A DNA stretch of 64,000 nt from contig NZ_DS022298.1 of the NCBI RefSeq assembly GCF_000153805.1, positions 1,223,434-1,287,433 of the forward strand, written 5' to 3'. Shown one piece after another: positions 34,736 to 36,994 of the stretch (position 1 is its first letter; every line of letters begins with the position of its first letter). The notes beneath the pieces were generated by a model, which made no database searches, was not told the origin of the DNA, and saw nothing but the letters and a program-made list of their open reading frames with translations. A program made the translations under genes and the position numbers. Source of the DNA: Synechococcus sp. BL107 (GTDB lineage: Bacteria; Cyanobacteriota; Cyanobacteriia; PCC-6307; Cyanobiaceae).

Positions 34736-35281
34736 ATGGAACGCTTTGGTCTTTCACCCTTAATTCGCTTCACCCTGCTGGCTTTGTACGTGGCTTTGGT
34801 GCTTCCGCTGCCCGTCCTGGCTCCTGAACCATTGAGGCCCTGGATGGTGGCAGGTTTACTGACGGGGCTGGTGTTGGTCTTGGGGTTGCTTAGCGAGCAG
34901 GTCGAAACCGATGCAGCAGGCCTTCGGGTGCGTTATCCCGGCTGGATTCGTTGGTTGTTGCGTCGGAGTTGGTCGATGGAGTGGGCCGATATCCGTGGAT
35001 TGGTCCCCGTTGGGACGAGCCAGGGTGGAACCGTGTACTACCTAAAGGCCGCTGACTGTCGCCATCAATTACTACCTCAGCGAATCGAGCGATTTGATTT
35101 GTTTTTGAAACTTCTGAGTGAACGGTCCTCCGTTTCAACGAAGGGAATTGGTCGCCTCACTCCTCCTTGGACATATCAGGTGCTTGCTTCCCTCGCAGCT
35201 CTCATGGTGGTTGGAGAGCTGGCATCCGGTTTGGCGATGAGCCAGGGCTGGATCAGCTTGCCGGCAGGTTATCCAGGCTGA
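34736..35281 (+). CDS. membrane protein, PH-like domain between spans
   Basis: 181 aa. Two hydrophobic helices at the N-terminus (FTLLALYVALVLPLPVLAP, WMVAGLLTGLVLVLGLLSE), a soluble middle (ETDAAGLRVRYPGWIRWLLR .. WADIRGLVPVGTSQGGTVYY) with a bPH-like pattern, and one more helix near the end. Conserved in cyanobacteria; role unknown. Its last 29 nt overlap the convergent response-regulator gene. Confidence 0.7.
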   Translation: MERFGLSPLIRFTLLALYVALVLPLPVLAPEPLRPWMVAGLLTGLVLVLGLLSEQVETDAAGLRVRYPGWIRWLLRRSWSMEWADIRGLVPVGTSQGGTVYYLKAADCRHQLLPQRIERFDLFLKLLSERSSVSTKGIGRLTPPWTYQVLASLAALMVVGELASGLAMSQGWISLPAGYPG

Positions 35282-35957
35282 AGCGATAGCCCCGTTGACG
35301 CACGGTGGTGATGCCACCACCCTCGCCAAGTCCAGCCTGCTCGAGCTTGCGCCGCAGGGTGAGAACTTGAGTATCGACAGAGCGGGGACCACCACTGAAG
35401 GGAGGCCACGCCATCCGAAGCAATTCTTGGCGACTGCGAACCAACCCAGGTGGCATGAGCAAGGCACAAAGCAGTGCGAATTCCCGAGGACTGAGTTCCA
35501 CCGGTTTGTCGCGAAGCGTCACCTGCCTTAGCAGCAAATGCACCTCAAGCGGACCGACGGTGACACGTTCTTGAAGCCCGCTATGACCTCTCTTTAAAAG
35601 TGTGCGGCATCGTGCTGCTAGCTCTTCTAAGCCAAAGGGCTTGCGCAAAACATCGTCAGCCCCATCGTCCAGGAGGCCGACAACAGGTTCGGCACCAGTA
35701 CGGGCTGTCAACACGATCACAGGACAACGAAGTTGTCCAGCAAGGCGTAGGGCAGAACTCTGCTCGAGGATCTCTGCACTCACCAGGAGATCTGGCGATT
35801 GATCCTGACAAACCTCTAGCGCTTCGACGGCTCGACCAACGGCTGCGGTGAGGTGGCCGTCTTGGCGGAGACGCTGCACCAAAACAGTGCGGAGGGTGGG
35901 ATGGGGCTCAACCACCAGAACACGTGATGGTTCAAGACCACTTCCTGAGTCAGGCAT
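35253..35957 (-). CDS. atypical OmpR-type response regulator
   Basis: 234 aa from ATG at 35957. Receiver (about residues 11-122) plus OmpR winged helix (LEVHLLLRQVTLRDKPVELS .. SVDTQVLTLRRKLEQAGLG). The receiver keeps Thr84 (VLTAR) and Lys106 (LRKPF), but the acidic pair is Glu17-Pro18 (VVEPHP) and the phospho-acceptor position is Ala61 in PDLLVSAEIL. It should not be phosphorylated in the usual way. NblR in Synechococcus 7942 is a known atypical regulator, so an NblR-like role is possible but unproven. TTG at 36032 is an alternative start. Confidence 0.85.
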   Translation of the reverse strand: MPDSGSGLEPSRVLVVEPHPTLRTVLVQRLRQDGHLTAAVGRAVEALEVCQDQSPDLLVSAEILEQSSALRLAGQLRCPVIVLTARTGAEPVVGLLDDGADDVLRKPFGLEELAARCRTLLKRGHSGLQERVTVGPLEVHLLLRQVTLRDKPVELSPREFALLCALLMPPGLVRSRQELLRMAWPPFSGGPRSVDTQVLTLRRKLEQAGLGEGGGITTVRQRGYRFSLDNLPAS

Positions 35958-36095
35958 GGTGATGGCCTGGTCAGTGGGAATGCTCGACTCAGTAAGTAAG
36001 TCTTGTGGCGTTGAAGTCACTGGATCGAACAATGCGCGACTAGGCTAGTACCAATTTCACGTAGTGCTGGTAGCGAGAGCTGCCAACCCCGATCA

Positions 36096-36368
36096 ATGAC
36101 GTCACTTGATGACCCACAGGCCATCCGTCATTTCCAATCCATTTGTGACGCGTGCCAGGAGCTCACAACGCGATATCACACGCCCTCCGAGCTGCGGCTT
36201 TACGCCGATGGTTATCTTCATGCGCTTCGAAAAACTGGCTCTCTCGACGTCCGTGAGCAGCATCGCCTAGAGCAGTTAATCGACCGCTGGATCTTGGATC
36301 CATCGAGTTTCATTGGCCCGGATGGGGACGTCAGCACGCTCTACATGCAGCATCCCCACGGCTATTAA
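36096..36368 (+). CDS. conserved cyanobacterial small protein, probably DUF6761
   Basis: 90 aa, all helical: DDPQAIRHFQSICDACQELT, PSELRLYADGYLHALRKTGS, LEQLIDRWILDPSSFIGPDG. Pattern matches a cyanobacterial family I know as DUF6761. Function unknown. Divergent from the response regulator. Confidence 0.7.
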   Translation: MTSLDDPQAIRHFQSICDACQELTTRYHTPSELRLYADGYLHALRKTGSLDVREQHRLEQLIDRWILDPSSFIGPDGDVSTLYMQHPHGY

Positions 36369-36374
36369 ATCCCT

Positions 36375-36698
36375 CTAACTGGCGAGAGCAATTTCAAGTT
36401 TTTCCTTGAGTTCGCCAGAGTTATACATCTCGATCAGGATGTCTGATCCACCCATAAATTCCCCTTTGACGTAGATCTGAGGAATGGTTGGCCAACTTGA
36501 GAATTCTTTGATTCCCTGACGAATCTCCATGTCAGAGAGCACATCGAAGGTTTCAAAAGCCACCCCGAGGGAGTGAAGAATCTGAACCACGTTGTTGGAG
36601 AAGCCACATTGCGGCATCAATTTTGAGCCCTTCATGAAAACGAAGATTGGGCTCGTCGCGATCAAGCCTTCGATGCGTGATTTCGTGGAAGCGTCCAT
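36375..36698 (-). CDS. grxD: monothiol glutaredoxin, Grx4/Grx5 type
   Basis: 107 aa. Active-site CGFS in KLMPQCGFSNNVVQIL and glutathione-binding WPTIPQIYVKGEFMGGSDIL. CGFS glutaredoxins carry and transfer [2Fe-2S] clusters, often with BolA partners. A bolA gene lies 24 nt upstream on the same strand, which supports that partnership. Confidence 0.95.
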   Translation of the reverse strand: MDASTKSRIEGLIATSPIFVFMKGSKLMPQCGFSNNVVQILHSLGVAFETFDVLSDMEIRQGIKEFSSWPTIPQIYVKGEFMGGSDILIEMYNSGELKEKLEIALAS

Positions 36699-36722: not shown

Positions 36723-36956
36723 TTAGGAAGGGACGGATGTGCTGAGTGCCAAAGCATGAATGGCCTCACTGGCGAGCTCCTGTTGAAGGGCTCCATACAC
36801 CATTTGGTGTTGCCGGATCCGCGTTAGGCCACTGAATGCGGAAGACACCACACTCACTTGAAGATGGTCTCCACCGCCAGTGAGATCTTCAACGGTCACC
36901 GTTGCATCAGGAATGGCACGTTGGATTGCAGATTCGACCGCGGACGGCTGCACCAT
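36723..36956 (-). CDS. bolA: BolA family protein
   Basis: 77 aa from ATG at 36956. BolA signature: [38 protein letters not shown] and [16 protein letters not shown]. The His in GGGDHLQ is a likely cluster ligand in Grx-BolA complexes. Directly precedes grxD. A start five codons earlier is possible. Confidence 0.9.
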
Positions 36957-36994
36957 GACGAAAACTCCCAATTCAATGATGTTGGCAGATGAAC

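Follow-up and report, generated by a model that had tools for sequence, protein, structure and literature searches.

A gene in the 64,000-nucleotide stretch of the Synechococcus sp. BL107 genome analysed here (the window) encodes an OmpR-type regulator whose receiver domain lacks the aspartate that accepts phosphate. This gene is likely the orthologue, in picocyanobacteria, of a regulator carried by almost every cyanobacterial genome examined, probably NrrA/Rre37, and its product is likely an orphan one-component factor whose activity is not set by phosphate.

An OmpR-type regulator without an acceptor aspartate

The minus-strand frame at 35253–35957 predicts a 234-residue protein beginning with the ATG at 35957 and containing a receiver and an OmpR-type DNA-binding domain; both match Pfam above the cut-offs (Response_reg 47.4 bits, cut-off 30.2; Trans_reg_C 57.7 bits, cut-off 26.2), as expected of the OmpR/PhoB type. 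The frame is open upstream of this ATG, and a comparison of related loci suggests that the true start is probably the GTG at 36020, 21 codons further upstream, giving 255 residues. A GTG occupies the matching position in all 14 aligned marine Synechococcus-type loci, in which a −10-like box just before it is also conserved; one type of Prochlorococcus loci starts at an ATG seven codons after the GTG position, and in Cyanobium-type loci that position is not kept. Residues are numbered throughout in the 234-residue ATG form. The relevant features of the window are as follows.

35253–36020, minus strand: regulator gene at its probable full length (GTG start, 255 aa); the ATG form is 35253–35957 (234 aa)
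35610–35921, minus strand: pseudo-receiver domain, residues 13–116 (Pfam Response_reg; dN/dS 0.009–0.028 where defined)
35775–35777, minus strand: codon of Ala61, at the phospho-acceptor position by alignment
35772–35774, minus strand: codon of Glu62, invariant in the family, the divergent genus g8 included
35280–35507, minus strand: OmpR/PhoB-type DNA-binding domain, residues 151–226 (Pfam Trans_reg_C, 57.7 bits)
36070–36083, minus strand: box GCAGCTCTCGCTAC (GCAN8TAC), an altered form of the NtcA-type box with the same spacing from the −10 box as in other cyanobacteria
36042–36047, minus strand: TAGCCT, a −10-like box (TAN3T) lying 22 bases downstream of GCAN8TAC
36096–36368, plus strand: DUF6761 gene, the head-to-head partner of the regulator, an arrangement shared by 23 of 40 outside loci
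36375–36698, minus strand: glutaredoxin-family gene, a member of the conserved neighbourhood
36723–36971, minus strand: BolA gene, a member of the conserved neighbourhood

A preliminary description of this DNA held that Ala61 replaces the acceptor aspartate and Glu17-Pro18 the acidic pair, and that the threonine, the lysine and the DNA-binding domain are intact; all of this is borne out. First, the frame and its residues read as described, and Ala61 followed by Glu62 is present in 111 of 111 loci of the picocyanobacterial family (the window gene twice, 29 loci from other genomes and 80 from named records, with some species counted twice), so that Ala61 is neither a private change nor an error. 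No neighbouring aspartate aligns with the acceptor position: of 28 paralogous OmpR-type proteins, 27 have Asp in the Ala61 column, as do 88 of 103 orthologues from outside the family. The four members of the divergent family genus g8 all have Thr61 with Glu62. Second, the canonical acidic pair for Mg2+ is lacking: Glu or Asp at position 17 is followed by Pro18 in all 24 aligned family sequences, and position 18 is Ala in all four g8 members. Third, all 111 family loci have Thr84 and Lys106, and the DNA-binding domain is recognised well above its cut-off.

The altered receiver is under strong constraint. In comparisons with the 29 nearest loci, several of them from the same species and with synonymous distances partly saturated or undefined, dN/dS where defined is 0.009–0.028 for the receiver and 0.003–0.033 for the DNA-binding domain, and the low values in the receiver indicate that it is not decaying. 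A search of 400 genomes gave some match at E 0.001 in 251 of 251 near-complete genomes, paralogues included, and the genomes at least 90% complete without a match better than 1e-40, among the matches listed, are G215, G241, G244, G361, G373 and G397. We give practically no credence to the notion that the gene is decaying or a sequencing artefact, for which nothing speaks except the missing receiver residues themselves, since 98%-identical genes of related genomes carry the same residues, dN/dS is near 0.01, and each of two 1.7-Mb Prochlorococcus-like genomes has just four genes encoding an OmpR-type DNA-binding domain (Trans_reg_C), the family regulator among them.

Orthologues throughout the cyanobacteria

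A profile search of 195 genomes gave 454–477 bits in 23 family genomes and at most 145 bits in the 172 others; the genus g8 scores 370–379 bits. Despite this gap in score, the best hits outside the family are, as judged from scores within genomes and from the gene tree, orthologues. In three genomes the outside orthologue scores 127–140 bits, against at most 94 for the other OmpR-type proteins of its own genome, and the gap is narrower in two larger genomes (126 bits for the orthologue versus 104 and 110). In the gene tree, the 131 orthologues group together, separately from 28 paralogues, with an SH-like support of 0.925, although the deep nodes are weak (supports 0.25–0.67). An orthologue is found in 103 of the 105 outside genomes examined, of which 99 were taken from the higher-scoring and 6 from the lower-scoring of the matches listed among the 172. 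In G414 and G443, both of one genus, the best hit is only a paralogue (loci L289 and L286), and the regulator may have been lost in this genus.

Synteny and promoters were read in 40 outside loci. The gene order regulator–DUF6761–glutaredoxin–BolA recurs in the same orientations, with the DUF6761 gene head-to-head in 23 of the 40 and all three neighbours in 14. Within the family, the same head-to-head pairing with the DUF6761 gene is present in 79 of 80 loci.

An NtcA-type promoter, altered or lost in picocyanobacteria

Of the 40 outside loci, 34 have the sequence GTAN8TAC upstream of the orthologue, compared with 4.8 in shuffles keeping base content only, and 32 have the complete arrangement GTAN8TAC-N20-24-TAN3T, compared with a mean of 0.31 in dinucleotide shuffles; the spacing is nearly always 22 or 23. 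Because the GTAN8TAC box was first spotted by eye among seven of these loci, the count of the complete arrangement without them is also given, and is 25 of 33. This is the arrangement that the available part of PMC3898017 describes as the canonical NtcA-activated promoter. In five outside genomes it is restricted to the orthologues, being present at five of five and at none of 47 other scanned Trans_reg_C genes (54 genes were given and 52 were usable; L209 was read in the wrong frame and counts weakly among the 47, and the Trans_reg_C set is incomplete in three of the five genomes).

The picture within the family is different. The strict promoter is absent upstream of the window gene and in 76 of 81 family loci, and in the remaining five it lies far off, at −471 or −476; bare GTAN8TAC is at chance level (6 of 81, with 9.2 expected), and none of the six OmpR-type genes of the window genome has the promoter. 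In its place the window carries GCAGCTCTCGCTAC, 22 bases before TAGCCT, in the arrangement GCAN8TAC-N22-TAN3T. This relaxed GCA form, which was defined after viewing marine sequences, occurs with its −10 box in 21 of 81 family loci (excluding the five far-upstream strict ones), nearly all of marine Synechococcus or Cyanobium types, and is missing from all but two of the Prochlorococcus loci. Glutamine synthetase is a textbook NtcA target, and its gene in the window genome, glnA, also fails the strict rule, so the strict rule cannot judge NtcA control in this genome. The upstream palindrome may also be a binding site for the regulator itself, a reading that was set aside when its spacing to TAN3T proved to be that expected for NtcA.

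Identity of the regulator

An NtcA-type promoter is found on the orthologue alone among the scanned OmpR-type genes of five outside genomes, and NrrA, an OmpR-family regulator, is reported to be activated by NtcA (PMC4295605, PMC3898017 and PMC7699953, in the parts available). From this correspondence, and by exclusion, the orthologue family is quite likely that of NrrA/Rre37; the window gene descends from a regulator that other cyanobacteria appear to switch on when nitrogen is short. Rre37 is the Synechocystis orthologue of NrrA according to sections of PMC4295605 and PMC7699953, and an excerpt of PMC9953108 reports Rre37 homologues in all the thermophilic strains studied there. The likeness to NrrA/Rre37 (All4312 in Anabaena, Sll1330 in Synechocystis), drawn by description, lies in membership of the OmpR family and in the NtcA-type promoter before most outside orthologues; the window member differs in lacking the acceptor Asp and the strict promoter, and in having Gln for His at position 197.

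The preliminary description had named NblR of freshwater Synechococcus as a precedent. As an analogy this stands: NblR of Synechococcus elongatus is OmpR-type, has a defective acid pair, and is reported to need no phosphorylation (PMC12632262, in the part seen). As kinship it does not: although both are OmpR-type with defective acid pairs, there is only a very small chance that the window protein belongs to NblR or corresponds to it directly. The NCBIfam NblR model (NF045914, cut-off 300 bits) gives the window protein 74 bits and NblR of the S. elongatus-like genome G427 398.4 bits; the latter is a different paralogue at another locus, falls outside the orthologue clade in the tree, and keeps its Asp, with an E-S acid pair and Met for Thr.

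Other named regulators can be separated similarly. The RpaB model (NF045944, cut-off 330 bits) gives the window protein 95.5 bits, compared with 390.5 and 355.7 for L200 and L204 of the same genome, and the PhoB model (TIGR02154, cut-off 296.2 bits) gives it 119.9 bits. RpaB and RpaA share its domain order and a similar conservation inside picocyanobacteria, but they are separate genes of the window genome with canonical, Asp-containing receivers (RpaB is named here by NCBIfam, and RpaA is what we take to be RpaA from its sequence type). The atypical OmpR/PhoB regulators ChxR and HP1043, likened here by description, are reported in the accessible portions of PMC12632262 and PMC3960148 to work and dimerise without phosphorylation, and belong to other lineages. 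Lastly, PMT9312_0717 is described in part of PMC6365647 as an orphan PhoB-like regulator near a DedA gene, the protein falling as phosphate rises. This is probably not the orthologue but another gene, since in G245 and G364 a different regulator stands about 3.6 kb from a DedA-type gene and the family regulator lies over 500 kb away from the closest such gene among the matches listed.

The window genome contains further atypical members, so that receivers are abnormal in three of its six OmpR-type genes. L196, about 13 kb to the left of the window (DNA-binding domain at contig positions 1210455–1210682), is OmpR-type with a nearly unrecognisable receiver, in which V-G replaces the acid pair, Ala the acceptor and Ser the Lys; its DNA-binding helix is NblR-like by eye, and it has no NCBIfam match at 1e-60. 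L192/L005 (contig, about 1390.9–1391.5 kb) keeps the Asp and has a Glu-Gln acid pair and Asn for Thr.

A probably stepwise erosion of the receiver

The receiver is also eroded outside the family, to varying degrees. All 103 outside orthologues keep the Lys, all have Ser in place of Thr, and 97 have lost the second acidic residue. At the acceptor position 88 have Asp, 7 Ser, 4 Glu, 2 Ala and 2 Asn, so that the acceptor Asp has been lost in 15 of 103. In exactly five the acid pair is intact and position 92 carries a basic residue (as it does in 26 of 28 paralogues), and all five belong to the Gloeobacter-like family f13. Gloeobacter is generally placed as the earliest cyanobacterial branch. The gene tree places these five sequences inside the orthologue clade, with weak support and with the branching order unresolved; if Gloeobacter does branch earliest, the receiver lost its second acidic residue before its acceptor, the latter in several lineages. 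Acceptor loss is seen in picocyanobacteria, in S. elongatus-like genomes, in a four-member Glu clade, in a Ser/Asn group and in one further sequence with Asn; the tree, whose deep nodes are weak, does not join the losses of picocyanobacteria and of S. elongatus-like genomes. The four-member clade consists of L165, L244, L246 and L253, in which the Glu at the acceptor position is possibly a built-in phosphomimetic.

A burst of change followed by a freeze

The window protein is only 37% identical to its S. elongatus-like orthologue, whereas across the same pair of genomes the values are 86% for RpaB, 75% for RpaA, 68% for the second RpaB-like protein and 49% for the other atypical regulator. Compared with a 1.7-Mb Prochlorococcus-like genome it is 86% identical, similar to RpaB (85%), RpaA (84%) and the RpaB-like protein (78%). 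On these identities the picocyanobacterial protein changed abruptly in the stem of the group and then froze, the NtcA box meanwhile being altered or lost.

Several residues distinguish the family from its relatives. First, position 103 is Tyr or Phe in 103 of 103 outside orthologues and Val in 28 of 28 family sequences. Second, all 28 aligned family sequences have Glu62, and none of the 103 outside orthologues does. Third, His197, which presumably lies in the helix that reads DNA, has changed to Gln. Fourth, Cys50 and Cys164 are constant across the 28 aligned family sequences, 27 of which also have Cys78 and 25 Cys117, and a Cys in alpha-3 carried by 101 of 103 outside orthologues is found in none of the 28. 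Counting together the acceptor, the switch tyrosine, the recognition-helix histidine, the cysteines and the NtcA box, we suggest with considerable reserve that in stem picocyanobacteria an NrrA-type, nitrogen-controlled regulator was rebuilt in one burst into a phosphorylation-blind protein that is uncoupled from NtcA, ranks with RpaB, is read out through redox thiols or its amount, and has partly new targets.

How the protein may work

The window protein would function as a one-component OmpR-type transcription factor without the means to accept phosphate, and its output would for that reason be set by the amount of protein and by whatever binds or modifies the pseudo-receiver. Phosphate is an unlikely input because there is no acceptor and the metal site is incomplete. 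The earlier claim that such a regulator acts without phosphorylation holds as the best inference from a loss that is fixed and under strong purifying selection, and we infer phosphorylation-independent activity, dimerisation without phosphate and control by abundance. None of the four HisKA (PF00512) genes of the window genome, the one kinase type searched for, lies within about 489 kb of the regulator, the nearest being at 769 kb and the regulator at 1,259 kb. A structure model from the 24-row family alignment reached a pLDDT of 58.6 and a pTM of 0.44, and at this pLDDT it was too poor for the pocket or the interface to be read from it.

Models for pseudo-receivers are listed in PMC12632262, and the sections available state that evidence is sparse on how active ones become neutralised. 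One such option, which we hold as a minority view, is that the pseudo-receiver still senses, but a different cue, and is gated by a thiol/redox switch, by a small molecule or by a protein partner. Selection on the receiver is about as strong as on the DNA-binding domain, where a mere dimerisation handle might need less; the family has acquired its own set of conserved cysteines and has no alpha-3 Cys; and glutaredoxin and BolA genes are old neighbours. However, those neighbours also adjoin orthologues nearly all of which lack Cys50 and Cys164, the cysteine changes may be drift carried along by a fast stem lineage, and no pair of cysteines can be placed in space from a model of pLDDT 58.6.

A constitutive protein, with the receiver locked active by Glu62 or by an altered pocket and only its amount mattering, seems rather unlikely. 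Glu62 does stand beside the acceptor position throughout the family and in no outside sequence, and Glu is at the acceptor itself in the four outside orthologues of one clade; but Glu62 sits one residue off. Position 103 is one that we take to be part of the usual receiver switch, and with Val there in every aligned family sequence, versus Tyr or Phe outside, that switch is probably broken. Phosphomimetic models of this kind are discussed in section 18 of PMC12632262, which, as far as the excerpt goes, also notes pseudo-receivers for which this has been disproved. The preferred reading is that of a one-component factor whose output would follow its amount or the partners of its pseudo-receiver.

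Implications

Among the matches listed, the portions of the literature available contain no published account of this regulator's receiver, its marine orthologue or its function, and Rre37 occurs in two marine papers in reference lists only; the erosion of NrrA's acid pair may have been published already. The family as a whole forms a graded series, from the full receiver of the Gloeobacter-like sequences, through those without the second acidic residue, to several lineages in which the acceptor is gone, and lends itself as a natural test of the passage from a two-component to a one-component regulator. If the regulator is NrrA, the fate of the nitrogen-to-carbon-storage relay in the open ocean also comes into question. 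The regulator is as conserved as RpaB and is among the four genes for an OmpR-type DNA-binding domain in each of the two 1.7-Mb Prochlorococcus-like genomes; the most abundant photosynthetic bacteria of the ocean maintain this DNA-binding switch, which has no phosphate site, with hardly any change.
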